DNA of 47,738 nucleotides from Pigoraptor vietnamica (lineage: Eukaryota; Opisthokonta; Filasterea). The stretch is taken from the NCBI GenBank assembly GCA_943704525.1, contig CALSCQ010002215.1:1-47738 (forward strand), given 5' to 3'. The position numbers and the translations under genes are program-made. Of the stretch, positions 897 to 40,659 are shown piece by piece (the first letter of the stretch is position 1; each line of letters opens with the position of its first letter). The notes under the pieces are model-generated. The model ran no database searches. It was not told where the DNA came from and worked only from the letters and a program-made list of their open reading frames with translations.

Positions 897-3800
897 ATGC
901 GCGCAGGCGCGGTGCGGCGGGCGCGCCTCGGAGCGCTGGCAATGTTTGTCGTGCTGTCCGCCGCGTGTTTCCACCCTGCATCGGGAGAGTGGCGCGCGTG
1001 CCCTGCGCGCTTCTTTGGGCTCGCCTCGGACGACACGCCGAAGTCCTGGGACTACTCGTGCGGGACGGGCACGTGGCAAGGGTGTGTTGTCCGTTGGGTT
1101 TTGCACGGGTGGCTTGATCGCGTGGATGCGCAGCGATTCGCTGATGCGCTCTAGTGCCCGTTGCTCACTGAAATTGGTTGCGCAGAAAGCGCTTCACTGC
1201 CCTCTGCGATGTGCTGCCTGCGGGGAATGGCACCGCAGAGGTGCTGTCGGTCACACTGCGGTACGTGGCCCCTCCTAGCGTCGCTGGCAGCGAGTCGCTT
1301 GCCACGGCATGGCGCGAGGAGGCGTCTGGGAAGCAGACAACGACGCTCGTCGTCGGTCCCCCGGGCAGCACCGTGCGGCCGTCCACGCGCGACGGCTCAG
1401 ACGTTCCGAATGCCGACGTCATTGTAGTGAAGCGCGCCATCACCGCCAATTACACGTCCGCGCTGCTCGCGGCAGACCTGTGCGCACTCCCTGCGTCCGG
1501 AGGCACGATCGAAATCGAGGCAGGCACAGTGACAGATCCCCTCGCGCCCCTGCTGCCGCCCGACTCTGACGCGGAGCTCCAAAACACAACGCTTGCGCTT
1601 GTTCCGCGGGTCGCCGGTTCCGCCGTCCGTTTTGCGCGGGGCAGGACAGTGGGCCCCCTTGTCACGGTGGGCCTCGGCGCCAGCGTGGTGCTCGCGGGCA
1701 TCGCTTTTGAGGACACGGCGGGACCCGTCGTTTTGGCGCGCAATGGCGGGCGCGTTGAGCTGCGCGACTGCGTGCTGGCGCGGATTGCCTCGATCGGCGA
1801 CGATGACGCCATATCGGGCGCGGCGCACGCGACTGGCGACGGCTCTGTTCTCACTGCGGTGCGCTCGGTGTTTACAAACAACACGGCCTACACCGGCGGG
1901 GCGTCGTTGTATGTGTGCGAGGGGGCCACTCTGAGCGTGGACGGATGTCGCTTTGAAGGTAACCGCACCCCCGCAATCCCGTGTGACAAGCTTGTGCGCA
2001 CTCTGACACCTCCCGTTGCAGGCAACAAGGCGACGTTCGGAGGGTCCGTTGTGGCGGTCGACGCGGCGTCCATTGTGCTGGCGAACTCGACGTTCCGTAA
2101 CAACACGTGCACGGCGGACAACCTTGCGATGAAGGACACGCTCGACGACGTGCCCATATCGGCGTCGGGCGGCGCCGTGCTGGTCTCCGGCAGCAACGGC
2201 CACATCAGCGTCTCGGATTCGACATTCATCGGTGAGTGCTGATTACCGCACAGTCCCACGCCCCTCATGCAGTGCCGCTCACCGCCAGTCGTCGTGTGCA
2301 GGCAACAGCGCGGAGGCCGGCGGGGCCGTCTCGATCATGCAGTACAGCGGCCGTGGGGCGCCGGCTGTCTTCCAGCGGTGCGTGTTCAGGGACAATGTCG
2401 CGAGCGTGGCTGCGGGCGCTGTGCTTGTGCTCGAGTTTGTCGCGCGGCTCGAGTCGATGTCCGCTGGCTTTGAGGACTGCGTCAGCGCGGGTAACGCGGC
2501 CACGATGATGGGCGGATTCGCCGCGCTACTATCCACCGCGCGCGCGCACGTGTCGAACAGCGCCTTCAGCAAGGACGTTGCGCAGACTGGCGGCGTGTTG
2601 TGAGTATTGTCATGCGTACGCTGCTCCGTGTGTCTGGCGAAGGGCTGACTGTCCTCTCTCTCTGCAGTCACGTGTCCGCCGGCCGCCTTGTCGTGGAGGG
2701 TTCGACGTTCAGTGAGAGTTACGCGTACAGCGGCGGGTGTCTCCGGTTCGGCGAGAGCTCGGTCGGCGAAATTCGCAACTCGACCTTCATCGACAACGCT
2801 GCGAGCGATGGCGGCGGTGTTTTGGAGCTGGATGGCGCGGCGGGCGTGCTGATGGACGGGTGCGTCATGACTGGCAGCGAGTCGCGGCTGGGGGGATGCA
2901 TCACGGCGTATGGGAAGGTCAATGGGCGCGCGGGGACCACGTGGCTCAACGTGACGCGAACGTACGTCCACGAAAACAATGCGCAATTTGGCGCCGTCCT
3001 GTACGCTTCGCAGTACGCTGTGGGTTCGCTCACCGGCGTTGGCAAGGTGCGCGGCACATCGCCCTCGCGCACCGTTGCGCTCCGTGTCGTCGTCGACGCC
3101 TCTACCTTTGCGAACAACAGCGCGTACGTCGGCGGCGTGTTTGCGCTCGAGGGCAGCCTTAACGCGGAGGTGTCGAACTCGTCCATGCGCGGCAATCTCG
3201 CAGCCCAGGCGGGCGGCGCCGTGTACCAGACGAACATGGCGACCCTCCGCGTCTCTGGGGGCGACGCGAGCCTCAACACGGCCAATGGCTTTGGCGGTTC
3301 GTTTTACGCCGACTTTTCGTCGCATCTCTTTCTCGTCAACGCGACGGTTAGCGAATCGATGGCGCTGCTGAGCGGCGGCGCTGCATACGTTGCCCTTGGA
3401 TCGCGCTTGGACATCTCCAATTCCACCCTCTCGAACAACAAGGCGTACGTCAACGGCGGCAGTGTGTGCGTCGTGAGCTCGGCGACGGGCATCGTCTCCT
3501 CGTCGTCCATCTCCAAATCTCTCGCGGGCGAGTCCGGGGGTGGGTGTTCATGCGTGCCTCTTTGTGGTCGGGCTCCTGAAGCGGACTTTGCTGTTCGTGC
3601 ATTTGTGTGCGCGCTAAGCGACGCTTGCGTTTCCAGGCGCCGCATTTGTGGGATTCAGTTCGGACCTCGTGGTCATGGACTCTTCTCTCGCGAACAACTG
3701 TGCGCGGATGACGGGCGGTGCAGTGCGAGGGAGTGGCGACGGGTCCTTGACCCTCGTGCGCAGGTATGGCGGATCGCATTGCCCTGACCTACCCGCACGG

Positions 3801-6800
3801 ACACGCACTCGACGCAAACAGTAACACTCACGACGCACCCTCCTGCAGCACCGTCAAGTTCAATGCAGCGCGGTTTGGTGGCGCCCTCCACGCGCTCCTC
3901 CTCATCCGCATCAAGGCGGTCGATGTGTCGTTCCGCTACAACACGGCGCTGTACACTGGCGGAGCGATTCACATGGAGGTGCGTGGCCGTCGCGCCTCTG
4001 CATCTTTGCTCGATGCAGTGTGCTGTGCGTGTGCGTGGTAGAGCTGGAAATGCAGGGAAAAGAAGACATCCGATGATGAATGTGCCTTGCGCAGGATGCG
4101 ACCAGCCTCAGCATTCTTCGCTGCGCCTTCCACGCGAACCACGCGACGGCCGGGTACGGCGGCGGCATTCTCTTGGGCGGCGTGGCGCACCTGGAGGCGG
4201 TCGAGTCGAAGTTCACGGCCAACAGGGCCGCGGTGGACGGCGGGGGCGTGTGCTCCAGCGCCCTCGAAACGATTGCGAGTTCATGCTCGGAGCTGTTCCC
4301 TGAGCTGCAGACGGCGAATTCGGGCACTTTGCGCCTGTCGTTCACGAACTGCTCCGCAGTGGGCAACGCGGCGGCCGGTCGTGGCGGTTTTCTGCGCCTC
4401 GAGGGCGGCAAAACGGTGCTCGACGGCGGCTACTTTGCGAACAACACGGCAGACCAGGACGGCGGCGCGATTCACTTTATTGGCTATTCGCCGGTGCGGG
4501 TGCTTGGCGGCACGCAGCGCAGTACGGAAGCGCCACCCTCGGCGTCTCTGTTGATTGGCAACCTCACGCTGGAGGGTAATGGGGCCGGTAACGTGGGCGG
4601 GGCTGTGTACCTCTGGCAGGGTACGGCGGACTGCGACGTGACGGTGGGCCGTGTTGTGATCCGCAACAACGCTGCGGAAACGGGGGGCGGCGTGTTCAGC
4701 GAGACGCCGTGGTTTGTGCCGCACGTGATACTGCCCACGTGGGTCTACAACAACACGGCGCGCTCTGGCCTCGGCGGGGACATTGCCACGGCCGGATTGC
4801 GGCTGCATATCGAAGTGCCCGATGCTGTCGGCGTGCTGACGGCCGTGAACAACGCGCGGGCTCCCAACATCACGGCGCTGAATGTCATGCTCTGGGACAA
4901 GATGTTCGGCGGCCGCGCGTTCCCGGCGGAGGGCCAGCGGTTCTACTCGGGCGACATTCTACCCGCCATGAAGGTGTCCCTCCTCGACCTCACCGGACAG
5001 CCGTCGGCGTTCTTCCGCGGATCACCCGAGTTCGTCTCGGCCACTGTCGCGCCTCTCGGCGAAAGCAGCGGCGCCGCTCCGGTGCTCGTGGGAGGGGGGT
5101 CGCGGACGCTCGACCACGGCACGGTCATGTTCGATCGCCTCGGAATCCACGGCCCCGCGGGATCGTATGTGCTCAACTTTTCAATGGAGGCCGTGGGCAT
5201 GGTGCAGCGGTGGGTCGCCGTTACCGTCACCCTGTCGCCGTGCGCGATGGACGTCGGCCGCTACGAGGTCAGCGAGCGCGTGAGTGGGATCATGACCGTC
5301 ACGTGCGAGAAGGTGGTCCTCGGGGCGTCCTCGCGCGGGCTCAGCGACGGCCAAATTGTGGCGGCCGCAGTGCCGGCCGTGATTATCTGCGGCGCGATTG
5401 CCGTGGCGGCGCTTGGATTTGTGCGGCGGTACAAGCAGCGCGTCAACAAGGAAGCGCACGCGAAATTTGTGCGCGAGAGGATCGACGGCCACGACGAGCT
5501 GGAGGGCCTTGAGGTGCCCCGCGCGGGCATCAAGGTCGACGGCCAGATCGGCGAGGGGGTGGGTTTCCCCGTGTTGCTTGGCCAAGGACTGCTGTCTGTA
5601 TGCATCAGTGACAGAGGGAACTGATGCGATTGTGTGCGCAGGAGTTTGGCGTCGTCAGCAAGGCGCGCCTGTTCACGCCGACGGGCTGCCGCTTGTGTGC
5701 CGCCAAGGCTCTCCGCGAGGGCGCCAGCTTTTCTCAGCGCAACGCGTTTGTGCAAGAGGCTGAGATTATGCGCAAAGTGCCGCCGCACCCGAATGTTGTG
5801 GCGCTCGTTGGCACGTCGCTCCGGTGAGTGGCTGCAGCGTATGCAACGGACGCAGTGCTGGGATGTGACTGCGATGCTCACGCTGCGTTCGTCGCAGGGA
5901 GGAGCCGATGTATCTGCTGCTGGAGCTGTGCAGCGAGGGTGACCTGCGGTCTCACGTGACGGGCATTCCCGAGCATATTCAGGGCACGCCGGCCGTGCTT
6001 GCGCAGTTGCTCAGGTGGGCGCACGCCGATTGTGCGACGAGTCTTTGCTCACTCACTCGCACCCACTGCGTCCGATTGCTACTGACACAGGCTCCAATGC
6101 AGCTTTGCGTCCGACATAGCGAATGCGATGCACCACCTCAGCGAATGTCGCATCGTCCATCGCGACCTGGCGGCGAGGAATGTCCTCCTGCACACCACGC
6201 CCCAAGGCGGCCTCGTCGCGAAGGTGCGTACACCCTGGGTTCTGTTCGGTTCCTCGCAAACATCAACGGACTCATTCTTGCGCAGCTGAGCGATTTCGGA
6301 CTCAGCCGCGCCCTCAACCCCTCGGAGGACCAGTACTTCCGCCGGCGCACGCGTCGCCTGCCCATTCGGTGGCTCGCGCCCGAGTGCATCAAGCAGCGCG
6401 CGTTTTCCACGGCAAGCGACGTGTGGAGCTTCGGCATTGTCCTGTGGGAGGTGGGACTGCGCTGTGTGTGAGTGGGAGTGCGCTGCGTCTGAGCGACTGC
6501 GCTGTGAGTGTGGCGGTGCAGCGCCGAAGGGGGGTATAGTGTGGCAGCACAATTCGTGCATCTATGGGAGCGGCCTTGCAATGTGCGGCTCGTTCTCTAA
6601 TGCGTTCCTGTGAGCAGATGATGTCGTTTGGGATGCAGCCGTATTACGGCGTCGACAACCACCTGGTGTCGCGCCTCATCGTGTCTGGACACCAGCTCGA
6701 GTGTCCCGCGCACTGCCCGCCGGACCTCTACAATGTGATGCGCGCCTGCTGGCACCCCGATCCGAGCCAGCGCCCGTCGTTCGCAGACCTTGTCGAGAGC

Positions 6801-7367
6801 TTTGCGCTTGGCGGCGAGGCTGTATGTGTCGGTGCGGAGGCGGACACGATCAGCGTGGGACCCACGGACGCGCTACCGCCGGCTAAACCGGTCGCACTCC
6901 CGAGGCAGAGCTTCTTCGACTCGGTCGCAGAGTCGGTGCGCACTGCGTTTGGCGGCGCGCGGCGGAGCCTCCACGGCGATTTCGGCTCGGTGCCTGGCAC
7001 CGCGCGGCTGCAATACCAGCTCTCCATGGCAAGCCTGCTCCAGACGGCGTCCGCTGCTGAGCTGGGCGAGTCGCAGGCTGTCGTCGCCGCTCCTTCGGCC
7101 ACTGCGTCTCAAGCGGAGTCGGTGACACCAAGGCAGCACGAATACGACAACGTGCACTCGTCGGAGGACATGGCGGTCTCGTGGAGTGCGTCGGACACGC
7201 TTGGAACGTCGCAGTCGGCTACGTCCATGCTGAGCACGCCGTCGTTTCCTGCGCGCATCCGCACGTCGCTTCTCGCGTCGTCCGTGGGGGAGACGCAAGT
7301 TCGCAGGCAGAGTGTGGCGTGGGTCAGCCCTGCCGAGAACGGGAAATTGCTCGACAGCGATGCGTGA
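897..7367 (+). CDS. Receptor tyrosine kinase with Pmp-like beta-helix ectodomain
   Basis: Thirteen exons: 897-1081, 1186-1958, 2022-2231, 2302-2599, 2668-3539, 3637-3763, 3849-3978, 4095-5558, 5642-5823, 5898-6014, 6103-6223, 6286-6450, 6618-7367; 1,797 residues. The start at 897 opens a signal peptide (basic MRAGAVRRAR, then a hydrophobic core). The ectodomain holds about twenty repeats of the type N-x-A-x-x-GG-A/G (NNTAYTGGAS, GNKATFGGSV, NNTADQDGGAI), the signature of the polymorphic outer membrane protein repeat, expected to fold as a beta-helix. One membrane helix lies near residues 1285-1307, followed by RRYKQR. The kinase (about 1345-1610) has every catalytic element: IGEGEFGVV loop, AAK lysine, EAE glutamate, HRDLAARN, DFG, activation-loop tyrosine in DQYF, PIRWLAPE and CWHPDPSQRPSF. 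HRDLAARN and PIRWLAPE mark a true tyrosine kinase rather than TKL. The C-tail of about 190 residues is Ser/Thr-rich. Ligand unknown. Confidence 0.9.
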
Positions 7368-7759: not shown

Positions 7760-10700
7760 ATGGCGTCGCCGCAGGTGAGAGCTGCCGTTGGGTTGGGATT
7801 TGTTAGGCCAAACTGAGAGCTGTTTTCACCCCGCAACCATGCCGCGTCTGCGAAGCGCGTTGGCTGTGCATGCGTGTGCATGTCTGAGACTATTCGCTTG
7901 CGCTGCTAGGATGCACTGCCGGCGATTGCCCGTAAGTCTCCGGACGATCTCGCGCGCCATCACCGCATCAACTCTTCCAAGCCGCTTAAGGCGGGGCAGA
8001 CGGTGGATGCAAAGAAATTGCTGTCGCGTCTCTACAGCACGAATGGCGCCATTCCGCCGACCATCACGGCCGAGTCGATGCGCTCGAAGGGTGCGTGCAC
8101 GTGCTCGCGTGCCATGTGTGTCCCTGGGCGCGTTCGGCTCTCCTCTCAACCGCATCCTTGCGGCCGCGCGTTTCCAGGCGCGCACATTGCACCCACAAAG
8201 CAGCGCAAGGTCACGTTCCCTCAGCAGCTGCCGCCCATCACGCGCGATGGCGAGCCGTTGCCGCGCTCCGGATTCCGTTCGCCTCCCCCGCAGCCGCCAG
8301 CACTCGCCGCGACACCGCGCACGCTTTCTGCGGCACAGCAGCGCGAACTCTTCCGGCTGATTGGTATGTGCACTATTGCGGTGCGGCTGTGCGTCGTGCG
8401 ACAGTGACGCATGCGCAAGAGACGGAGGCAGAAAGGCATGGCCGCGTGTTGACGCGCGTGGCGTTGTGTTCTGTGTTTTTCGCAGAGAACTTTGAGAAGC
8501 ACTCGGAGTCGTACGAGTTCAGCTACCTCGCGCCCATCCGGGGCGTGCGCTTCAACCCCTATCGCATGCGCATCGTGACACACGCCGAGGTGGACCCCGA
8601 GAACTACTTCACCATCAGCAACAACGGCGTCACGCACTACTTCCACGGCGAGATTGGTGCGGCGCGGCGGCATGCGCGGCTGTGCGCGGAAACTGTCGTT
8701 GACGCGAAAAAAAAACGCAAACCCACGCGCACTGTCCTTTACGCTTACCCGCCTATTCCTTCGCAGACATCACGCCGTTGAATGTCTGGGTGCGCGAGTA
8801 CGAGACGTTCCACCGGCTGCTCAAGATTCCGATCTTCTCGCAATACCGCATGTGGAAGCCGTTTTCGGTGTGGCGGAGGAACGTGACGCACAAGAAGATG
8901 GTGGCGTGCAAGGAGGCCCTCGCGAAGAACGTCTTCCTCCTCAACCCCGTGCTGCAGGTCACGCTCATGCGCGTGCACGACGCCTGCCGAAACTTCGCCG
9001 CCAAGCGACTGTTCCGCGTGGACGCCGACGCCACCTACACCCTCAAGGACTTTGTGCGTGTCCAGGAGGACCACATGCGCCAGCTGCGCACCGAATTTGC
9101 CGCGTTTGAGGTGCGTGGCATGTGCGTTTGCATATGCAGCGCTGTGCGTTGTTCGCTGGCTTGCGTGAGCGATCTGTGCGGCCTTGGAGTAATCACGCGT
9201 GCGTGGACAGGCGGAGGTCCAGCTGAACGTGCTCGATGCGTGCAAGGCGGACGTGACGGCGGCCGGCTTTACGCTCGAGGCGGACATTTCGGAGCTGACG
9301 TACATCCAGCAGGCCGAGCTGCGCGCCAAGTACGCGCGCATCGCCCACTTTATCCGCCTGTGCGACTACCTCGTGTTCTCTGCATTCCGCAGCCTCGTAA
9401 TCGGGTCCGTCACGGACCTCTGCGCGCTGGTCGCGTGCGAGGTGCCTAAGATTGTCGTGGTGGGTGCCTCGCATCACTCGCCGCATACGAGTGCGGCAGT
9501 GCGCGGCGGAGTGCGTTCCGTCTGGCTGTCTGCTGATGCGCTGTGTGGCCGCCGCAGGTGAACGAGGAGCGGAAGGAGGTGCCCCGCGCGCCCCTCTTCC
9601 ACGTGCAGATTGAGCTGCATGCGCGGCAGCTGCGCTTCAGCCCGGGCGTCGGCCAGTTCCAGTGGATTATGGAGAAGACGTTCCAGTCGTTCCTCGACTT
9701 CGTCGCCGGCATCCGAAACCTCGTCTCGCTGGTGGGCACCGGGTCCCTGTTCCCGTCTGTCTCCCGTGCACTACTGCTGCTCTTCAATTCCATCTAACGC
9801 TCACCGTCCGCGCAGCCCATGTATGAGCAGTTCACGCGGCCGCGGTTTGTGAGCAGTGCCGGAGACGAGTCGCTCGCGGACGGACCCCAGCTGGGACCCA
9901 CGGCATTTGACGACGACCACAAGTACCAGGCAGCCGTCGCCAAAACGCGCGACTCTGTGGCGCTTGCGTTTGAGCGGTCTGCGCACTACGCGGCGTCGTT
10001 TTCCGAGAGCCTCTCTGTGTACTTGGAGAACACGTCGCTGGACCTCGACAAGCTCATGGCGGCGCAGACGAGCCCGGCGTTCTTTGGGGAGCTGCTCGCG
10101 CGGTTCAACGGCCAGTGCGCTATGATGCAGGCGATGCCCGAGACGCAGCAGGTGCTCTTCCTCCGCGTGGACACGCGCGGGCTGAAGGAGCTCTTTGTGC
10201 CGTCGCCGCTCGGCTGCTTCACGCACGTGCGACAGGGCATGCCGGGCCTCATTGCCTCGCGCACGCGGGCCCTGCTGCAGGAGATCAACGCGAACCTGCG
10301 CCAGGTGTCGTCGATTCCATCGACCGTGGACGAGTTTCTCGAGCACATTCGCTTCCTCGACGCGCTTAAGGGCACTGTCGGCGCGCTCGCCAACCAGTGC
10401 GCGGAGCTCGAGGGCATGTTTGCGCTCACGCAGGAGTACGAGATCTCGCTCAACGTGGAGGACTACGCGCTGTTCCAGACGCTGCAGCCCACTTTTGTCG
10501 CTCTGAAGGACGCGATTGCGGCGGCGGACACGATTCGCGAGGAGCGCACGGGCGTGTTCTCGGAGGAGGTGATGCGGCAGGTGGAGCGGCTGCGGCTCGA
10601 GGCCCTGCAGACGCAGCAGAACCTGCAGAACCCAATGCTCGCCAGCCGCGACTCGGGCGTGGAGACGGTCCTCCAGTTCCTCGGGAAGATCGAAACGGCC

Positions 10701-13700
10701 CTCGCGCGGTTTGCCGAGCGCGCGGGTGTTCTCACGTCGCAGCAGAAGGAGCTTGGACTCATTGCATCGCGCCACGAGGAGCTCGAGCACCTGCGCCGCG
10801 ACTTTGACCTGAAGCGGACGCTGTGGACGTCGCTGTCGGAGTGGGACTCAACGCTGAGGTACGCACAGTTCCGTTGTTGCGGGTGCCTTTTTTGCTGTCC
10901 GTGCGCATCTGATGGCATTGTTGCTCACTTGTGTGTTCCGTGCAGCGCGTGGCTGGAAACGCCGTTTCTCAAGCTCGACATCGAGGCCGTGGGCGCGGAG
11001 CTTCAGCGCTACCGCCGCGTGATACAGCAGAGCCGTGCCGGGCTGCCGGGGAACAACGTCGTCCCCCTCCTCGACTCGAAGGTGTCGCGCTTCGACGACG
11101 TCTTCCCCGTCATCAGCGACCTGCGGAACCCCTCGCTGCGCGCGCGGCACTGGGACGAGATGTGCGCGGTTATCGGGCAGGACTTTTGGCGCGAGGGCGA
11201 CGTGCGCCTGTCGGAGGTGCTCTCGCTCAGCATTGGCCGCTTCCGCGAGCCCGTCGCGCGCATCTCCTCGAAGGCGTCGAGCGAGGGCGCGCTTGAGGCG
11301 ATGCTGAACCGCGTGGATGCCATGTGGAAGGAGACCGAGTTTGTCGTCAAGCCCTACCGCCCCGACCTGAAGGTGGGTTGCAGCGTTGTCGTTGTGAGGT
11401 GTGGATGGCGCGCGAGGGTCTATGGTTTGTTTGCTCACGCGTCGGGTCCCGCAGGACATGTTTGTGCTCACAAATGTCGACGAGATCTACGAGAAGCTGG
11501 ACGACAGCCTCGTGACCATCGGCGCCATCCGGGGCAGCAAGCACATTGGGCCGATTCGCGGGCAGGTGGAGGAGTGGAACCGGCTGCTGCGCGTGTTCTC
11601 GGGGACGCTCGACCTGCTGCTCACGTGCCAGCAGCTGTGGATGCGCCTCGAGGCCCTGTTTGGCATAGTCGACCTGCAGCGGCAGATGCCGCAGGAGTAC
11701 CGCCTCTTTGCGTCGGCCGACAAGAGCTTCCGCGAGATCATGTGGCGCACGAACAACAAGCCCAACGCGATGCGCGCGGGCACGGCGTTTGGGCTACAGG
11801 ACACGCTGCAGCACAACATCACTGCGCTCGAGGGCGCAGAAAAGTGCGTTGACGAGTATCTTGACGCGCGACAGCAGATGTTCCCGCGCCTGTACTTCCT
11901 TTCGCGCCGGCAAGTGCTCGAGGTGATTGGCCAGAGCAAGAACCCTCTGAGCGTACAGTCGGTCGTCGGCTCGCTGTTCGCCGGCATCGAGGCGCTCGAC
12001 TACTCGGTGCAGAACAAGGCGTACGAGTTCAAGGGTGCCGTGTCGTCGGAGGGCGAAGTGCTTGCGTTTGCAAAGACGGTCAAGCCGCGCAACACGGCGG
12101 ACGTGTGGCTCAGCGGTGTCGAGGACGCCATGGTGTCGTCGCTCAAGCGCACGCTGAAGCAGTCGCTGCTCGAATTTGACGGCAAGACGCAGCCCGAAAT
12201 GATTGGCTCGCTGCCGGGACAGGCGATTGCGCTGCACTCGCAGATTGCATGGACCCGCGTGGTCGGCTACTCGATCGAGACGGGCGCGCCGGCGGAGAAG
12301 TTCACGTCGATGCTCGACGAGTGCGAAGACGTGAGTGCACTGCAGCTTTCAGACCCTGACCCGTGTTCTTTCGTGTGGCTCGCTGACGTTTTGTGTTTTC
12401 TGCGCAGCGCATCGACGCCCTGTGCGACATGGTCCGCGACGACCCCGACGCCCTCCGCCGCAAGACGGCCGCGTCGCTGCTCACGCTGGCAGTGTACCAG
12501 CGCGACATCTTGGGCGTGCTGTCGCAGCTACCGGTCCCCGCGGAGGCATCGACGTTCGAGTGGCACGCGACCCTGCGCTACTATTGGGAGCCGGACGAGA
12601 ACACGGCGGTCGTGCGCATTGGCGACGGCACTTTCAAGTATGGCTTTGAGTACCTGGGCGCCTGCCAGCGGGCCGCCGTCACGCCCCTCACGCAGCGCTG
12701 CTACCTTGCGCTGGCCACGGCCATGCAGCACAACGTGGGCGTGGCGAGCGCGGGGCCGTCTGGGGTGGGCAAGACGGAGATGATGCGCGACATGGCTCGT
12801 GCCCTCGGGCGCTTCTGCGCGGTTTTCAACTGCTCGGCGGGCATGGATGCGGGCACTGCCTTCCGTCTGTTTGCGGGTGCGGGCCAGTCGGGCTGCTTCA
12901 GCATCCTCGACGACGCCGACCGCTCGCGTCCGGACGTGCTCTCGGTCATCGGACAGCACATTCGCTCGATGAAAATCGCCAAGGACTCCGGCGCAGCGTC
13001 GTTCTCGCTCAACGGCCGCGACGTGCGCTTGGAACCGTCGGCGGCCGTGCACCTGACGATGCGCTCCGGCGCTGAGCGGCGCAGCAAGATTCCGCCCAAC
13101 CTGCGCGCCCTCATGCGCCCGTTTGAGGCCGTGGCGCCGCCGCAGTCGTTTGTCGGAGACGTCTTGCTGCTCTGCGAAGGCTTTGACGAGCCCCAGCGCC
13201 TGGCGCGGCAGCTCGAGACGATGCACGGATTGCTGGCAGAGCGCCTCTCCGGAACCGCGGCGCACTACGACTGGGGTCTCCGCGCGCTGCGGGCCATTGT
13301 GTCGCTGGCGGGGCAGCGGCGCCGCGCGTGGATGGAAACGACCGAGGACGAGATTGTTGCGTCATCCGCGTACGACGTACATTTCCCGCGCATGCTGGCC
13401 GAGGACGCCCCCGCCCTACGCGCCGCGGTCGCCGACGCCTTTCCTGAGGCGCGCTCGCTGCAGTCGGCGTCGGTGGGACTCCTCTCGGCCTCGCTCTCGG
13501 CATCGAGCAGCGCCGCGCGCGAGACGTTCCAAATGCAGCAGAACTACTTGCACTCGGAGGGTGACGCGCGTGCCCTGCGGCAGGCCATCACGGCGGCGAT
13601 CACGGCGGGCGGACTGCAGCCGGTGACGCGCATCGTGGACACGGCCGTGCGCCTCCGAATGGCGCTCGACTCGCTTCAGCCCGTCGCCATTGTCGGACTG

Positions 13701-16700
13701 GCAGGTTGCGGGAAGACGGCCACGTGGCAGACGCTCGCGCGCGCCATGAATGTCCTGCGGGCGCTGCCTGCGCGGGAGGCCGATCGTAACCTCGCCACCC
13801 GCCGGCTGCACTCGACGTCCGATGGTGCGCTCACGCCTTCAGCGGCTGTCAGCGCGACTGGGAAGCCAGAGACGCCTCCGCCCGAGCAGAGCGTCGAGGC
13901 CGTGTGGTGCGCGGCCGTGCGCGCCGGGGTGATGACGCCCTCGGAGCTTTTTGGGGAGCGCCGCGAAGGGGGGCAGTGGGCGGACGGCGTGTTCCCTGCG
14001 CTCTTCCGACAGGAGGCGCCCGAGGGCACACTGGAGCGGTGGATTGTGATTGACGGACCCGTCGACGCGGACTGGTCGGAGCAGCTCAACACGCTGCTGG
14101 ACGACACGCGCACTCTGTGTCTCCCATCCGGCGAGCGGCTCCGCATGCCTGACAACATGCGCATTCTCCTCGAGACGGTGGATCTGTCGACCGCGTCGCC
14201 CTCGACGGTGACGCGGTGCCGCGTCGTGGCGATGGACCGGCCCCAGGACTACTGGATGCCGATGGCCCAGTCGCGCATAGCACGCACGGCCGCGCGGCTG
14301 GGGTATGCCGACGACCTGGTGCCGGACCTTCAGCGCCTGTTTGCGACGGTCATTCCCGCCGGGCTGAAGTACGTGCGGGACTCCGGCGAGGAGCCGCTGC
14401 CGACGCAGGATCTCGGCATTGTGGAGAGCATCTGCACGCTCCTCGACGCCGTGGCCGTGGTCCCGAAGGACGCGCCATTGATGCAGGGCGAGGACGTGCG
14501 GCGCATCGTCCACGGCGCCTTCGCCTTTGCGTTTGTGTGGGGCGTCGGCGGCAGCTTTTCGGACGCCGCGCGCGTATCGTTTGATCGGTTTGCGCGCGTG
14601 GCGCTGGACGGCCTGGAATGCAACTTTCCCGCGTCCGGCTCCGTCTTTGATTACCACTTCAACAACCGCGAGGGGACGTTTGTCAAGTGGGCGGACCTCG
14701 TGCCGACGGGCGCGTCGTCCGAGGCCGTGCCTCGCTCGCACGACATGCTCTTTACGACGCCGCAGACAGTGTGCTACGACACGCTCATCAACTACTATGT
14801 CGAGCAGGGACGCCCGGTGCTCCTCACTGGGCCCCCGGGGACGGGCAAGAACCAGATCGCCGCGCGCTACATGCAGCGCCGCCGCGAGAAGGAGGGCTTC
14901 CTCACCGGCTCGGTCGCGTGCCACGGGCGCACAACGGCGGACCATCTGCGCCAGTACCTAGAGGGGTCGCTGGTGCGGCGCGCGGACGGTGGCCTCTCGC
15001 CGCCCCCCGGTCGCCGCATGCTGATGATGCTGCTCGACCTAAACGCCGACGCGGACGACGAGGCGGAGCGGTGCGGGGACGGCGTGTGCTGGGGCACGCA
15101 GATGGAGCTGCTCGCGCAGATTGCGTCGCAGGGGGGCTTTCATGCCAAGTGGACGCCGACCTTCCGCCGCCTTTCGGGCGTCTCGTTCATTGCGACGTGC
15201 GGATCGACGGAGAGCGGGCGGCGCGCTGTCCCTGAGCGCCTCTCCCGCCACGTGGCCGTGGTGTGCGTGCCGGTGCCCACGCAGGAGACGTTCCTGTGGA
15301 TTGCGAACACGGCGCTGCAGGGCTTCCTCGCGCCGTTTGCCGACGAGGTGCGCGCCATTCGCAACCAGTTTGCGTCGGCCATTGTGGCGCTGACGCAGCG
15401 CATCGCGGGCGACTTCCCGCCGGTGCCGACGCGCAGCCACTACATCTTTAGCCTGCGCGAGGCGGCGCGCGTCCTCGTCGGCATGACGCAGATGCGCCCG
15501 CTGGAGGTCTTCACGAAGGTAGACGCCGTGCGCGTGTTTGCACACGAGTGTGCGCGCGTGTTTCACGACCGCTTTGTCGATCCCCTCGAGCGGCGCCGCT
15601 TCAACGCCGCCTTCGCCGAAATCCAAGAGTCGTTCTTTGGCGCGTCCGCGGACAAGATTACCGCGGCGGGCGACCTCGTGTTCGGCGCCGTGGCAGGCTT
15701 CAATGGATCGACCGTCAAGTCGCCCGTGTACACGGAACTGGACGTCGAGAAGCTCTCGGCGTTCCTGCAGGAGAAGCTGGACGAGTACAACGTCAAGTGC
15801 CAACAGTCGGTGCGCCTCGTCTTCTTCCCGGAGATCACGAGAACGTTTGTCCGCATCCACCGCCTCCTCCGCCAGCGGCGCGGTTCGGCACTGCTCGTCG
15901 GCGCGCGGGGTTCGTGGCGGTCGTCGCTCGTGCGTTTTGCGGCGTACCTTGCGAGCATGGCCATTGTCGTCGTGGACGCGTCGAAGTGGTACGGCGTGGA
16001 GCAGTTGCGGGAGGACCTGCGCAAGGCCGCGCGCGCCGCGGGGTCGCTCGGGGTGGACATTGTGCTGCTGTGCAGCGAGTCTGTGCTGGAGGAGCCGTCG
16101 TTCCTCGACGACCTGAACTGCATGCTGGGCACGGGCACCATCCCGAACCTGTTCAAGGCCTCCGAGCGCGAGGAAATCATCGCCGAGGTGCGCCAGTTTG
16201 CGATTGAGGCCGGCTGTCCGGACACGCCCGACTGCGTCACGGCGCACTTTTACGAGCGCGTTAAGGATCGCGTGCACGTGGCCATGTGCTGCTCGCCGGG
16301 TCCCCTCCTTGCCCGCCGCCTGCGCGAGTACCCTGCGGTGCAGTCGCGCTGCTCGGTCGTGTGGGTGGACGGGTGGACCGAGGAAAGCCTGGCGGCGATT
16401 GCGAGCGTCACCATCGAAGGCCCGCTCGCTGCCGATCACCTCGGGGGCATCGACGTCGCGCAGAAGGTCGTCGCGGTGTGCACCAAGGCGCACGGGTGCG
16501 TGACCCGCATTGCGTCGCGATACTCGGACGAAACCGGTCGCCAGTTTCACGTGACGAGCGCCGCCTACGACGACATGCTGCAACTGGTGGCGCAGCTCAT
16601 GGAGAAGCGGCGAACGACCATTTCGACAGGTGCGTCACGGCCCTTTGTGGCGTGTGGCTGTGGCGTGTGGCTTCTTGTGACGTCCGTCGTTACGTCTGTG

Positions 16701-19700
16701 TGCCGCCCGCACAGCTCGTTCGTCTTGTCTTTTCCGTGCATTCTCTGACCCGTTGTCTGTTGCGCAGGCCTCGCTCGCTTTGGCGCCGCCGTCGACCGCG
16801 TGTCGGCGCTCCATCAGCAGCTCGCCAAGCTCCACCGCGACTTCGGCAACGTGGAGCTCCAGATGACGCAGCAGAAGGCGGATATTGAGTACTACGTCAC
16901 GCGCCTTGTCGACGAGCGCAAGCTGCACGAGGACGCGCTGGCGCAGATTTCAACCGACGAGGCCTTTGCGTCCGACCTCGACGCGGAGATCGAGTCGCTG
17001 GTGCGCCTCACTGAGGAGGAGATTGCGGCCGCGGTCCCGGCGCTCGAGGGCGCGATCGCGGGTGTGCTGGGCATAGAAGAGGCGGCGATGACCGACCTGC
17101 GCACCATGCGGCGGCCCGCAGTCACCGTGCAGCGCGTCATGGAGGCCGTCTGCGTCGCGTTTGGCGTCCCCGCAGACTGGCAGTCGGGCGTGCGCCTCCT
17201 TGAGGACCCGAAGTTTGCGTCGAACGTGGCGAACTTCGCGCGCGATGCCGTGCCCGAGGTCGTCTTCCGCAAGCTCATGACGTACACGGAGACGCCCGAT
17301 TACGATCCCGACCAGATCGGAAAGCGCTCGGCTGCCGCGCAGGCGCTGTGCCTGTGGACGCGCGCGCTGGTGAATTATGCGAAGGCGTCGCGCAGCGTGG
17401 AGCCGCAGCGGCAGAAGATTGCCAAGATGCGCGCCGACCTCAAGGAACGCCAGGCGCGCGCGTCGGAGCGGCGCGGGCGCCTCGCGCAGTCGACCGAGGA
17501 TCAGGCGCAGCTGCAGCGCGAATACAACGACAAGCTCAAGGCCGTCGACGTCCTGAAGGTCAAGTACGACGAGCTCCTTGCGAGGCGCGAGCAAGGCGCG
17601 GCGGTGATTGCGGGCTTCGCGGGCGAGTACTCGCGCTGGATGGAAACGGTGCATCTGCTGAAGAAGGAGGAGAGCACGGTCGTCGGCGACACGGTCGTCG
17701 CCGCCGCGTGGATCGCGTATGCAGGCGCGCTGACGCAGGAGTACCGTCGCCTGCTTGTCGCGGAAATCCGCGGCCTGTGCGAGCAGGAGGGCCTTGCGTG
17801 CTCGATGGACGTGACGGTGCCCACGCTCGTCGCCGACCCCAACGACATGGCGTCGTGGCGGCAGAGCGGCCTCGGCGCGACCGAGACGGCCGCCGAGAAC
17901 GCGACGCTCGTGACGCGCTCGCTGCGATGGCCGCTGCTGGTGGACCCGCAGCTGGAGGGCGCGCGCTGGATCACGCGCCTCGAGTCGCCAAACGGCCTTC
18001 GAACGCTCAAGTGCTCCGACGCGGGCTTCCTGCGCGCGCTGGAGTCTGCGGTGCGGCTGGGCCAGCCGGTGCTGCTGATGGACATTCCCGAGGGCGGCGT
18101 GGACCCCGCGATCATGCCGCTGCTGCGCCGGCAGATCTACCGGCAGCATGGGCGCGTCCTTGTGCGGTGGGGCGAGACAAGCGTCGACTTCGACCCCAAC
18201 TTTCGCCTGTATGCGTGCGTGCGGCGAGCCAACCCGCGGCTCTCCATGGACTTCTGGTGCGTGTGAGCTGCCTGTTCCCAACATTTTCGAATTGCTGCAC
18301 ATGTAACTTTCACTGCGCCGGCGTATTGCTGATGCTGTTCTGTGTGGTGTGTGCAGGCAAGCCTTCAATGTCGTCTCGTTCCGCGAGTCGCCCGAGTGGA
18401 TTGAAGACGCGATGCTCTCGGCGGTATTTGGCCACTTCGCACGCGACGACGAGGACCGCCTGAGCGAGCTGGTTGTCGACACGGCCCGCTTCCGCACGGA
18501 GCTCGACCGCGTCGAGGCGCTTGTGCTCGAGCGGCTGTGCGCCGGCACGGGCTCTGCGATCGAGGACGATGCGCTCATGGCGGAACTTGGCGTGGCGCAG
18601 AAGCAGGCGGACGCGGCCCACGCGCAGATGGAGAACGCGAACAACGAGCGCGCGGCGATTGCGGCGCGGCGCGAGAAGTTCCGTCCGCTTGCTGCCAGCG
18701 GCGCGCACATGTACCTCGCCACGGACGAGTTTGTGCGCCTCAACCCCCTCCTCCAGTTCTCGGTGCCCGACTTTGTGAACCTCTATGCGCTGGCCCTCCG
18801 CAAGTGCGTGGCGGGGGCGCGCGACGACGGGTCTGTGGACGTCGACGCTCTCCTGAAGGTGGTTCCCGCGCAGCTCTTCCAGCACGTGTCGCGCGCGCTG
18901 CCGGAGGACGAAAGCCGCGCGTTTGCGATTATCTTTTGCGGGCGCATCCTTCGAGCGCGCGGGGCCATTAGCGATACGGACTGGCGTGTGCTCCTCGCCA
19001 CCCACCGCCCCTCGGGCGTGTGCCCGCCGCGCCCGGACGTCGACTGGCTAACGCCCGAGGCGTGGGAGGCGGCGATTGGGCTTGGGCAGGCCGTGCCTGC
19101 GTACGAGCGCCTGTGCGCGGACCTCAGCGCCCGCACGCGAGTCTGGCAGGTGCGTTTTGCGACCTGTGTGCTTGTGTGGTGTAGTTGTGCAGCGCGTTTG
19201 CTTTGCGCATTGCGTCCTCTGATCCCCGTTTCGTCACGCAGGCGTTTGGTGAGAGTAAGGTGCCCCACCGCGAGCCCCTCCCCGATCCTTGGGCCGCCGA
19301 ACTCAACGACATTCAGCGGCTGATAGTTACCAAGACGCTGCGTCCGGACATGGCCGTGCCCGCAGTGCTCGACTGGGTGGAGCGCGCCATCGGCGAGGGC
19401 TTCGCTCCCCGCGCCTTTGACCGCTTCCGCGGCATTTTCCAAGAGACGTCACCGTCGACGCCGCTCCTGCTCATCCTCGGCGAGGGCGCGGACCCGGCGG
19501 ACGAGCTCCTCGCTTTTGCCGCCGAGCAGGGGAAGGCCGCGCGCATGCACGTGCTTGCGCTCGGTGAGGGCGCGTACGAGGGCGCGGAGGCGCTGCTGGA
19601 CAAGGCCGCGAAGACGGGCGACTGGGTGTTCCTGCAGAACTGCCACCTCGCGGGCTCGTGGATGGCACGCCTGGAGGAGATTGTGACGACGCTGTCTGGC

Positions 19701-21834: not shown

Positions 21835-24675
21835 ATGGCGGACGGCGCCCCGTGCGACTTTGTCGACATCATGGACACGCTGCCCGCCATCATCCCCGAA
21901 AACCCGTGCGCGGAAGGCGTGGGCGCGCGCGCGGTAGGCCCGCTTGGCTTCGAGGTGCACGCGGCGGATCCGCTTGAAGTGCATGGGACGGGCGACATGG
22001 CGCCGCACTCGCCGCACGCGAGCGCCGACGGGTCGGGGTGGACCGACGTGGCGGAGGAGCCGCCGGCCAAGCGACGGCGCGAGGGCGACATGGGCGAGGC
22101 GTCCGGGGACGACGCTCCACCGGTGGCCTTTAAGGCGCGTGCTATGCTCGCGCTGCCTCGCTGATTTCGGATCGCGTTCACTAACAGATTGCTTCGCTTG
22201 TGCTGCAGATAACGCGGCCAGACACCTCCACGCACACATGGACATGCCTCGGACCAGGTCAACCGCGGCTATTCATTCAGCGACGCGCTGGGGGAGGTGT
22301 GTGGAGCGCATCTGTGTTTATGTGGACGCGTGCATGCAGCTTCGACGTGTCTGTTGTCTGCATGTCCACCACTTTATGGCTGACGTGCCTCGCCGCAGAC
22401 CTGCCCGTGTCGTCCGGCAGCAAGAGCAAGCCGATGCGCCTTCCCAGCGACGCACAGGACGTACTCTCCTTCCGCAAGTGCGCCGGTCGCCCGTCCGCGG
22501 ACTTTCTTGCGCGCTTTGTGGGCATGAGCGAGGCCACGCACGTGATTCGCCTCAAGCGGAAGAGGAACGAGCAGGACGCGCTTCCGAACAGCCGCAAACA
22601 CTTTATGCAGCAAATTCGCGACGCCTTTGTCGCCAATTACCATTCGAACGTGCGCAGGGACGCGGTGGGGGCTCCTTGCCGATGTATGGCCTGTGGTGCG
22701 TATGCGTGCTGCGCATCATTGACGCTCGTTCTTTGTTACCCTGGCAGCGCTTTCGATTCGGGTCCCTCCTGCTGGACCGCCTGACGGACGCGCGGGTCTC
22801 GCTCGTCATCAATCTTTATCGCGATGGTTTCACCCTCGGTTTGGACGAGTCTGTCGTGCATCGGTACGTGCAGTGCTCCAGCGCGCGAGACCCACGTGTG
22901 CGCCCCTTGCGATTGTGTGCCAACAGGGGCTGCGCTCGCAGGTACGATGGGCCGGCGCGCGATTTTTTTGCGGCGATTGACGCGCAGCTGATTCCAGTCG
23001 AGCTGTCGGACATTGTTGATGCCCTCCCCGCGCGGCACTTTTGCAACGGAGGGATTGTCGTGGAAATGCGGGACGCGCGCTTCATGCCGGCCCCTGCGCA
23101 GGCGCGCGCCGTCGGGACCGGGATGCCGGGGTCGCAGGGCCAGGGGGCTCCGGTGCTACCGTCGTTTGCGCCAGCGGCCGCGCTGCCTCTCGACGCCACC
23201 CGCCCCTCCGTGCGTCGCGTATTGCTGCGCGCTTCTCCGTCCGCACTGCTAGGCGACATAATGCAGGTGTGTTCAAATGCATGGCATCGCGTGCAGGGCG
23301 ATTGTGTGCGACGGTGATGGCGTTCTCACACTGCTTTCCGTCACGTCGTTCAGCTCGCCAGCGAGGGGGAAGCTGGCAGCGCACACTATTCGGACGATGA
23401 CTGCGTGCGGCTCGAGCGCAAGCTGCTTCTCCAAGTGCGCGCGCCGATTTGCCTCGATCCCTCAACGCTCGTCGCGTGCGTTGCAAACGCGCAGACGTAT
23501 GGCGCTCGCAAAATAGCCGCCGCTCTGCGCGGGCACACGCGACGGAGTTGGTTTCCGACTGGGCTGGACGGCGTTCGCCGGTCGCGTTTTGCGCTCATCA
23601 ATTACCTGGCGCGATCGAAAAAAGCTGCGGTGCCGTTGGTCGAGTCGTTGGCCGAACCGAAGCGGGAGCCGGCGACCTCTGCGGCCGCTAGTCCCTCTGG
23701 GGATCGTGGGGTTGACGCGCGGGATGCGGGCGAGGGCACCCGCGAGCGCCCGGGTGCGCGCAACTCGTTCGACCCGCTGGAGAGGTGCGATGCCGATGCC
23801 AGCCCATTGCGTCTGTTGTGCCAGTCGCTGTGTTCCTGCCGCAGCTCACTCTGTGCGCGATGCAGGACGGCCATTTTGGCAGCAGAGGCGCGCATCGAGC
23901 CGCCAAAGACTGGGCCGAAGTTTCCGCCCAGGCGGGCACTGCCGCCGTCGTCTACGCAGCAGCCGGTCCCCGTGCGCGTCGTCCGGTTTGAGTCACGGCC
24001 CCCGGCTGGACAGACGCAAACAGCCGTTACATCTTGTTCTCTGGAAGTGCGGCAACATCAGAACGGAATGCACGAGTGCTTTGTGCGCACGTGGCAGGGC
24101 CAGGACACGGGCCAGAACGGGGAACTTTTCCTGTAAGTGTGCACAACGACATGCCTGTGCGCGCTTGTCCCGTCATCCCGCCATTCACTCGGCTGTGTTT
24201 GTGTCGCGCAGGTTCTACTTGGGACTGCGGGAGGCCGCCATGGGCTACGTGACGCAGTTTAAGCGTCTGTACATGTCCGAGGGCAATGCGTGCACGCTGG
24301 ACAAGGAGATTTCGATGGCAGACCTTGCTCGCCAGCACGAGGAGAGGCAAAAGCAGGCGCAGGCGGCGCCGGCCCAGTCGCACTCGCAGCCCGCGCAGTT
24401 GCCCTCGCAGTCCCCGTCGCAGCCTGCCCAGCCGCCATCGGCACAGCCTCCGGCAGCACATGCCGCCGCGCGCACGGCGAATGCGGTGGGAATGGGCGCG
24501 GGGATGCCAATGGGTGGCGCGTCCATCCAGCAGCGTGCCGTCGCCGCCCTCTCGGCCGCGCAGCAGCAGCACCTCATACTACAGCAGCAGCAGCAGCAGC
24601 AGCAAGCGCCTGCTTCGCTGGGCATGGGGCTCTCGGCGCCCGTGCAGGCCGCCATCCAGGCGGGCAATGCGAACA

Positions 24676-38175: not shown

Positions 38176-40659
38176 ATGGGTGCGTAGGGCTGCTGTGGGC
38201 GTGTACTTTCTGCTCTCCGCGCAGATGCTGACACTGCGCGTCTGTGTGCAGCGGACGCCGACTCGTCATCCAGCTCGTCCGAGTCCGAGGGGGACAAGAG
38301 CCTCGAATTCGGCGGCTTTACGTACACAATAGGCATGCGCTTGGAGGCCCGTGACGCATGGGGACAGTGGTAAGCTCACGCGCGCGCCTTCTGTCTGTCG
38401 GCTGCCTCTGGAGCCCTGAGGACCGTTGCACTTTTAGGTTCCCGGCCGTCGTGCGCGGTGTGTGCCGCGAAGACAATACGGTGTGGGTGCATTTCATGAA
38501 CTGGGCGGAGCGCTTCGACGAGTGGGTCTCTGCGGAGGCGGGGAGGCTGCGACCGGCGGCCGTCGGGGCATCCTCCGCTGACCTCATTGCGGAGGCCAAG
38601 CGGCGCACGCTCGAGCTCAAGAAGCAGCGCCGAGAGGATCGGCGAGCGCGCGAGCGGGCCTTACGCGCCGCGCAGAATGCCAAAGTGGCCGCGACGGTGG
38701 AGGGCCTTGTTGCTGGCGAGACGCGCCCCGAAGTGAAGGTGGAGGACGAGGGGAGTGCGCAGCCGTCCACTGGCGATGCCGATGGCTTCCGGTGCCCATT
38801 CCCGGGTTGCGAGAGGACTTTTTCGAAGAAGAATGCGGTGGAGTGCCACGCCAAATTTGCTCACCGGCCACGCAAGCCGCCCGCGGAGGGCGCGGCGGCG
38901 AAGGGCCCTGCGGCGGATGGGGACCCGCAGGCGCAGGCATCGCGCAAGCGGCGTTCGGTGGAGAAGGATGCGAGCGACACGCAGCCCGGTGGTGACTCAA
39001 AGAGGCGCCGTAGCGGCGGGGATCCGTCCGATGAGATGCCTGGAGCCACGCGTGCGGGACGTGCGAAGGTGAGTCTCCGTGCCCCTGCCACGACCGTGCT
39101 TTGTCGGGGGTGAAATACATACGAATCATTTCTGCCTTCGCTCAGGATGACGAGGGCCCCTCAGAGCTGTTTGGCTATCGGCGGGGTCAGCGCGTGCTTG
39201 CGCGGTGGCAGGACCGGCGCATCTATCCCGCGCGCGTGCTAGGCTTCAACCGCGACGACTCAATCAACGTGGTGTTTGACGACGGGAAGAGCTACCGCAT
39301 CACCCACCTCAACATATTCCCCTTCAGTCGCGATGCGCTCGCCAAGCAGAACGAGCGCAGGGCGGCGTACATGCGGGGGTTCAAGGGCGGCGCGCGGCCG
39401 GCCGTGGACAGCCCGCTGGCCACTGCGCCAATGTCTCCCGCCGTCAATGCCAGCGCCGCGCCTGCGCAGGCAGCGATTGTCGATGGCGCAGTTGGGGGCG
39501 CTGCGGTCGTGGAGGGTGTCCTGGTCGATGGGGAAAGCGCACGCGGGCCTGCACTGGACCGCGTGCGGCAGCGACGGAAGAAGAAGGACCGCGCGAAGAC
39601 CAAGGCAGAACGCAGGGCGGAGCGCCTCGCTGCAAGCAAGCGCGCAGGAATGGGCGGGGGCGCGGGCATTTCGGCACCGGTGCAGGCCTTGGTGGTCGCG
39701 CCGAGCCAGCCGCTGCTGCCCGGCGGGGCCCTTGAGAGCGCCGCGGGTGTTGCCGTGGGTGCCGCAGGCGACGATGCGAGGGGCCTCGGGGGCGAGGGTG
39801 TGCACTCGCAGGACGTGCAGGCCGATGCGCCGCTGAAGCCCGCCGGCGCGGCCGTGGATGGCGCGCTGGGGCGGCGGTCGCTGCGGATGAAGCGACCAGC
39901 GGCAGACACCCGAAAGGTACGGCCATTGCGTGCAAATCGGCAATGTACCCAAAGGCGCACTGCCCCATTCCTGACGGCGCGCACATTTTGGGAGCAGCGC
40001 GACGGCGTTGTTCGATGCTGCGGGTTCAGCGACGAGCACGGCTTCATGATACGCTGCGATGGATGCGCCTCGTGGCAGCATGGCTACTGCGTCGGCGTGC
40101 ACCCCGACAGCGTGCCGCCGCGATACCTGTGCACCGCATGCGGGCCCGCGAGAAGTAAGTTGTCAACATGTCGATTGTGCTGCCGCTGAGTTGCTGACCG
40201 TTTCTTGCGATAGCGGCTCCTCCGCCGAACCGGGACGGCCTCGCGGGCGTGCCCAATGGACGGACCCGCCTGGGTGATCGCCTGCGGCTGTGCGCGTCCA
40301 TGCAGGGCGACACGATGGCTGTCCTGCGCGCGCTGCGGGCCGTGCGCATGTCGGGAGTGCTGTCACGGTAAGTGATGCGTCTGTGACGTGTTGTCCGGTG
40401 GTTGGGTCGCTGAGCAATTCCAGTCGCACTCCATGCGCAGGGAGAAATTTGCGCCGCACGTCACTCGCGGGCTGCAGGCGCTCGAGGCGCACGTCAAGCG
40501 ACTGGAGGCGGATTTCGGGGGTGGGTGGGGTGCCAACGTGCCGAGTGGGTATTGACAGGAATACTGATGCGACGCGAACGAACAGCACTCGAGGGTGTGG
40601 GACTTGAGGGAGACGAGGTGCTCAGCAAGTTGCTGACGGCGTACAGGGACCACCAATGA
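38176..40659 (+). CDS. PHF20-like chromatin reader (Tudor, C2H2, Tudor, PHD)
   Basis: Exons: 38176-38179, 38252-38369, 38438-39068, 39146-39916, 39998-40154, 40214-40367, 40441-40520, and possibly 40559-40659 (671 residues). If the last 38-nt gap is not an intron, translation ends at 40555 (649 residues). The tiny first exon (ATGG) is inferred: it gives MADADSS through a normal 72-nt intron. Domains: MBT/Tudor-like fold (TIGMRLEARDAWGQWFPAVV, HFMNWAERFDEW), a basic charged stretch, one C2H2 finger (CPFPGCERTFSKKNAVECH), a second Tudor (GQRVLARWQDRRIYPARVL, VVFDDGKSYRI), an Ala/Gly-rich basic linker, and a PHD finger (CCGFSDEHGFMIRCDGCASW ... CTAC). The set matches PHF20/MBD-R2, the methyl-lysine reader of the NSL acetyltransferase complex, but the zinc finger lies between the two Tudors. 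Its end is 14 bp from the MOCS2B stop. Confidence 0.82.

Follow-up and report, generated by a model that had tools for sequence, protein, structure and literature searches.

What can serve as the ligand-binding part of a receptor tyrosine kinase (RTK) outside animals? The question is raised by a gene of the filasterean Pigoraptor vietnamica, located at 897-7367 on the forward strand of contig CALSCQ010002215.1 (assembly GCA_943704525.1), in which repeats of the kind known from chlamydial polymorphic membrane proteins (Pmps) stand upstream of a membrane helix and a tyrosine kinase. We call the whole analysed stretch, one contig of 47,738 nt with 64% GC, the window, and refer to other contigs of the searched genome (32.5 Mb in 1395 contigs) by C numbers. 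Directly readable from the sequence are the structure of the gene, the joining of repeats, transmembrane (TM) helix and kinase within it, the catalytic motifs, the family of sister genes and the SH2 and protein tyrosine phosphatase (PTP) domains of the genome. Our main interpretation, to which we assign a probability of about 0.82, is that the gene encodes a holozoan RTK whose Pmp-type rod, mounted on a membrane-proximal domain, would sense a surface or polymer ligand, cluster and signal through SH2 proteins.

In a manual splice model the gene starts with an ATG at 897, ends with a TGA closing at 7367, exactly where the sequence-only reading had placed it, and encodes 1801 amino acids (aa) in one frame. 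Twelve introns of 62-167 nt, each GT-AG, separate 13 exons (897-1081, 1186-1958, 2022-2231, 2302-2599, 2668-3539, 3637-3763, 3849-3978, 4095-5558, 5642-5823, 5898-6014, 6091-6223, 6286-6450 and 6618-7367) and leave the frame unbroken. The predicted order is a signal peptide, a 1250-aa ectodomain containing the repeats and the membrane-proximal domain, a single TM helix, the kinase and a 188-aa tail. The putative signal peptide (aa 1-30; 897-986) carries a hydropathy peak at aa 9-29. The one membrane helix that had been proposed corresponds to aa 1285-1307 (5352-5420), the strongest hydrophobic stretch of the whole protein (hydropathy 2.62). It is followed by a juxtamembrane segment (5421-5528) with KEAHAKFVRERID, which alignment shows to be nearly alike in the sister genes on C753 and C904.

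Since the receptor gene model was predicted from sequence alone and its kinase is interrupted by introns, one may ask whether two neighbouring genes, an adhesin and a kinase, have been mistaken for one. The arrangement of the exons makes this very improbable. The coding sequence of exon 8 alone begins in the last repeats, passes through membrane-proximal domain, TM helix and juxtamembrane segment and ends within the glycine loop of the kinase. The sister gene on C542 has a 1239-aa intronless frame that contains repeats, membrane-proximal domain, TM helix and kinase N-lobe, with 37.9 bits for Pfam Beta_helix and 90.4 bits for PF07714, and a single 1562-aa frame on C184 likewise joins Beta_helix (34.9 bits) to the kinase N-lobe (PF07714, 76.1 bits). 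We regard the window receptor as one gene because exon 8 runs from the repeats to the glycine loop and the C542 frame from the repeats into the kinase N-lobe. The single receptor of the sequence-only reading therefore holds against a division into separate genes. An assembly misjoin as the source of the fusion was also considered and was rejected because the sisters show the same architecture.

The kinase domain (aa 1345-1613; 5532-6800, exons 8-13) matches PF07714 with 261 bits (E = 1.2e-77). It was described from the letters as a complete tyrosine kinase, and all the expected elements are indeed in place: GEGEFG, K1375, the αC glutamate, HRDLAARN with D1478, DFG with D1500, and APE, the P+1 region reading PIRWLAPE. 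PF07714 takes in both the tyrosine kinase (TK) and the tyrosine kinase-like (TKL) groups, which would allow for a TKL serine/threonine kinase resembling a TK. We find this hardly credible in view of the catalytic loop, which is HRDLAARN and not of the HRDLKxxN type, of the PIRW motif and of the structural database, where the best 60 of 2523 PDB matches (E 0.001) are all TKs, the first being an EGFR construct that contains the kinase twice, with FGFR4 (3e-56) and FAK next. A maximum-likelihood tree of 35 rows, midpoint-rooted for drawing only and including nine partial exon chains of 160-242 aa, splits the TK rows from BRAF, IRAK4 and TGFBR1 with moderate support (93/89); of these TKL references, TGFBR1 and IRAK4 are represented by provisional sequences and both sit on long branches. 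By these sequence criteria the window kinase is a member of the TK group and not of TKL, and the kinase phylogeny that had been suggested yields no placement inside TKL. In the same tree the window kinase falls into a clade of 16 rows from its own genome (support 94/96).

We then turned to the ectodomain. Its repeats are beyond chance. Within the 1250 residues we count 24 copies of [FVYML]xx[NSDG]x[AST]x(2-4)GG, against 1.4 on average and at most 7 in 1000 shuffles; FxxN occurs 12 times (1000 shuffles: mean 2.3, maximum 8) and GGA[ILV] 8 times (1000 shuffles: mean 0.6, maximum 4). The most frequent GG-to-GG spacing is 27 residues, with 12 pairs. A hidden Markov model (HMM) of one repeat rung, trained on the window protein and the C904 gene, gives 23 matches on the window protein versus 0 in 5 shuffles. 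Taken with the Pfam family Chlam_PMP, which matches five stretches at 27.1 bits (cut-off 20.6), these counts define a repeat region of some 23 rungs of the Pmp type, each 26-27 residues long (aa 166-1095; 1496-4784), so that the earlier estimate of about twenty repeats was a fair one and the proposed comparison with Chlam_PMP came out above threshold. Neither a Pmp middle domain nor an autotransporter barrel is among the four Pfam families that match the window protein at E <= 10. When the ectodomain profile was compared with the PDB sequences, the sole match was a 3634-aa Tetrahymena protein annotated as 'Transmembrane protein, putative' (PDB 7w5z chain U2; E = 8.9e-15). The membrane-proximal domain (aa 1096-1280; 4785-5339) has no Pfam match and is shared with the sister receptors.

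Is the window gene alone in this architecture? A count of sister genes had been suggested, and 13 of the 16 rows of the kinase clade show Pmp or beta-helix evidence in the ectodomain, of varying strength: the window gene, C83, C184, C327, C397, C465, C542, C753, C787, C848, C904, C1076 and C1367. Pfam Beta_helix exceeds its cut-off in five sisters (C184, C397, C787, C848 and C542); on C397, C787 and C848 the matching frame precedes the kinase exons, to which it is linked by strand order. Chlam_PMP exceeds its cut-off in the window gene and in C1367. The rung HMM, run on frames of at least 250 aa and without matches in the sisters' shuffles, finds 12 rungs each in C1367 and C904, 10 in C848, 6+6 in C1076, 6 each in C327 and C184, 5 each in C787 and C465, 4 each in C542 and C83, and 1 each in C753 and C397. 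The C753 gene also matches the window ectodomain (2.9e-7) and its repeats are visible by eye.

A second HMM covers the membrane-proximal domain, the TM helix and the juxtamembrane segment and was built from four seeds (window, C904, C542 and C753). It recovers seven sisters from outside the seed: C1076 (1.8e-24), C465 (2.3e-23), C83 (2.3e-15), C787 (2.9e-15), C327 (8.6e-14), C1367 (4.6e-13) and C397 (1.2e-8). Weaker matches restricted to the TM and juxtamembrane end occur in C446 (2.8e-6), C816 (2.7e-5), C788, C354 and C117. Because such end-only matches include kinases without repeats, we counted only full-length matches as the common domain. Taken together, the window gene and its sisters appear, from these profile matches, to be one family of tyrosine kinase receptors exposed at the cell surface.

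The three remaining rows of the clade are without repeat evidence. On the minus strand of C446, the TM helix and kinase are preceded by Kelch repeats and by three successive frames that match the bacterial-type substrate-binding fold Bmp/PnrA (27-32 bits), and on C788 a laminin-G domain (68 bits) and Big_9/cadherin-like domains occupy the same place; both chains are joined by strand order. The ectodomain of C416 is unassigned. The rung HMM gave no matches in a sister clade of nine rows, for some members of which the upstream sequence is short; one of these, C716, has four EGF_2 stretches and a kinase in a single 848-aa frame. On C602 and C1333 ectodomain matches are followed by kinase matches of the same strand; C191 shows this too, with a gap of 5.7 kb between them. 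Because the genes are related by descent, a Fisher test of ectodomain against kinase clade was given no weight.

Several results weigh against our interpretation. AlphaFold2 models of the single exons 5 and 8, computed without relatives, have mean predicted local distance difference test (pLDDT) values of 36.4 and 33.0, none of the 40 Foldseek matches of the exon-5 model reached E <= 0.001, and a comparison of exon 8 with the PDB sequences returned one match, at E 0.34. The window protein has no Pfam Beta_helix match and its own Chlam_PMP score is modest. Among the sisters, C904 scores 11.8 bits with Chlam_PMP, under the cut-off, and C465 and C327 have no Pfam Beta_helix match. In the tree, the 94/96 of the 16-row clade is just under the starred level, and the window row is in no starred set. 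Chlam_PMP and the motif counts support the sequence-only reading as to the Pmp-type repeats; as to the fold, the single-exon models have low confidence. The coils of a right-handed parallel beta-helix measure about 22-30 residues, and the repeat period here is 27. We consider that the repeat rod is probably a right-handed beta-helix, a view that relies on sequence profiles only. Pectate lyases and tailspikes appear among the Foldseek rows of the exon-5 model at E of about 1 or worse, and we gave them no weight.

The same repeat type is also found with another class of receptor. Of the 10 contigs with the class C seven-transmembrane (7TM) domain 7tm_3, five (C100, C456, C461, C466 and C723) carry, on the strand of the 7TM domain and 0.5-2.8 kb upstream of it, a Pmp-type match. 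The window ectodomain itself is matched by C456 (3.1e-18), C100, C723 and C466 (4.8e-4); the link on C461 is weak, its four Chlam_PMP matches all being under the cut-off. The clearest arrangement is on C100 (29998-32007, minus strand), where one 670-aa frame contains repeats (four rung matches of 7-12 bits), a membrane-proximal-like stretch (36 bits with the corresponding HMM) and 7tm_3 (155.6 bits). On C456 the repeats run on into 7tm_3 over one frame and further exons, each score being under its cut-off (7tm_3 pieces 13-23 bits, Chlam_PMP 18.8 bits). To the eye C1046 resembles these genes, and it matches the membrane-proximal HMM at 34.4 bits; it was left out of the 7TM count because it has no 7tm_3 match. 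In a table compiled by hand, whose counts are lower bounds, at least 33 contigs have Pmp-type matches, of which at least 9 are linked to a tyrosine kinase and at least 5 to 7tm_3 within 8 kb, and 19 are without a listed partner.

These observations bear on what the rod does. The fold, the surface location, the dimerisation, the phosphorylation sites and the ligand are what we infer. In the mechanism that we propose, the rod would sense a ligand that is polymeric or bound to a surface and that most likely belongs to prey bacteria or to other cells. Ligand binding would cluster the rods and bring the kinases together for activation in trans. The kinases would then phosphorylate Tyr1514 (6334-6336), the sole tyrosine between DFG and APE and a probable autophosphorylation site by inferred role, as well as tail tyrosines such as Tyr1728 (7143-7145), which lies in the motif YDNV. 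We take YDNV to be an SH2 docking motif of the pYxN type; such phosphotyrosines in the tail may recruit the cell's SH2 proteins. That the rods recognise microbes or prey is a guess.

Alternatively, the protein may be mainly an adhesin, its rod attaching the cell to other cells, to bacteria or to a substrate and its kinase doing no more than report or tune adhesion, in the manner of DDR-type or integrin-linked signalling. In chlamydial Pmps the FxxN and GGA repeats serve as adhesion motifs, and trichomonad Pmps are surface proteins (PMC6701047); moreover, 19 of the 33 Pmp-type contigs have no listed kinase or 7TM partner. Sensing is a better fit to the similar repeats on class C 7TM receptors and to the Bmp/PnrA binding fold that the clade kinase on C446 apparently carries. 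Because the repeats also occur on G protein-coupled receptors (GPCRs) and a kinase of the clade apparently has a solute-binding fold, we prefer a sensor role to adhesion alone and hold a mainly adhesive function to be possible but doubtful. For the sensor itself, we lean slightly towards the view that one cassette of Pmp rod and membrane-proximal domain serves two unrelated transducers, the TK clade with evidence in 13 genes and the class C 7TM receptors with four to six, and that swaps for bacterial-type Bmp/PnrA-Kelch or laminin-G ectodomains within the kinase clade would make for open-ended recognition, possibly of bacterial surfaces.

The nearest named profile is chlamydial (Chlam_PMP), and the trichomonad Pmps are suspected transfers (PMC6701047). 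The repeat ectodomain could thus be a bacterial acquisition and not a module of long standing in eukaryotes. Conversely, a single scan of bacterial and archaeal contigs gave one weak match (36% over a short stretch), the sole PDB profile match is the Tetrahymena transmembrane protein (8.9e-15), and Pmp-type repeats hold little phylogenetic signal. We therefore consider bacterial transfer unlikely.

Signalling of the proposed kind would draw on a phosphotyrosine toolkit, and the genome contains one. A degenerate HRDLAARN pattern finds 28 sites (26 HRDLAARN, 1 HRDFAARN and 1 HSDLAARN), and a count by exon gives 31 SH2 and 16 PTP matches. In the sister gene on C184 the catalytic loop (11323-11346, minus strand) reads HSDLAARN, with serine replacing the HRD arginine. 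A Src-type SH3-SH2-TK gene and an SH2-PTP phosphatase are holozoan markers. C68 carries a Src-like gene with an MGC start and SH3 domain, both recognised by eye, SH2 (PF00017) and a kinase closest to Fyn/Src (~1e-114). Its HRDLAARN loop is readable only across an intron, and the vertebrate Src loop HRDLRAAN was not found in the genome. On C1247 (48744-52397, minus strand), SH2 and PTP matches follow in order on one strand, as in a SHP-like phosphatase.

In the window, a dynein heavy chain gene (9798-18263, forward strand) adjoins the receptor; its match to the axonemal 2/5/8 coiled-coil is under the cut-off, and the gene would fit a flagellate. Further downstream are a frame with an Spt20 SEP domain (21938-23314, forward strand) and one with PHD and Tudor-like domains (39035-40186, forward strand).

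How does this family compare with known systems, and why does it matter? The source of the ligand-binding parts of RTKs before animals is an open question. An adhesin-type rod that occurs across a clade of TK receptors and on GPCRs of the same genome makes recombination between ectodomains and transducers visible. If the rods read bacterial surfaces, they would offer a tractable premetazoan model of prey or microbe recognition through phosphotyrosine. Lineage-specific RTKs, including RTKA and RTKB of Monosiga, were reportedly described by Manning in 2008 and Suga in 2012. Lineage-specific ectodomains on choanoflagellate and filasterean RTKs are known as well from PMC8662651, in the main text of which neither 'pmp' nor 'beta-helix' occurs. 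The window protein resembles these receptors in having an ectodomain, one TM helix, an HRDLAARN-type kinase and a genome with SH2 and PTP domains, and differs from them in its Pmp-type rod, a probable beta-helix. No Pmp or beta-helix RTK was found in the literature searched, where broad searches covered part of the results and the key holozoan kinome papers lay outside; nor was a paper found that pairs 'Chlam_PMP' with 'tyrosine kinase', or beta-helix with RTK and choanoflagellate. Provisionally, we regard the family as a new form of the lineage-specific RTKs of holozoans.

The passenger of chlamydial Pmps is a predicted beta-helix. Like these proteins, the window protein has FxxN and GGA[ILV] repeats; unlike them, it has a TM helix and a tyrosine kinase instead of a middle domain and autotransporter barrel, neither of which is among its Pfam matches. 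The trichomonad Pmp-like surface proteins resemble the window protein in being eukaryotic and, for the most part, in having a TM helix near the C-terminus; they differ in their short tails with endocytic motifs, and the word 'kinase' is not found in the main text of that study (PMC6701047). The Tetrahymena protein in PDB 7w5z has the same repeat type as the window ectodomain, but is a ciliate protein; its match hints at a broader eukaryotic spread of Pmp-type repeats.

On the GPCR side, a 2025 holozoan survey reports glutamate-type receptors with varied ectodomains, including 5'-nucleotidase and ephrin-receptor-like ones in choanoflagellates, and its main text does not contain 'pmp', 'polymorphic', 'beta-helix' or 'pectin' (PMC12716839). 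The Venus kinase receptors (VKR) use a Venus flytrap module rather than a repeat rod and have a kinase near the insulin receptor; like the receptor proposed here, they are RTKs whose ligand-binding module is also found on class C GPCRs.

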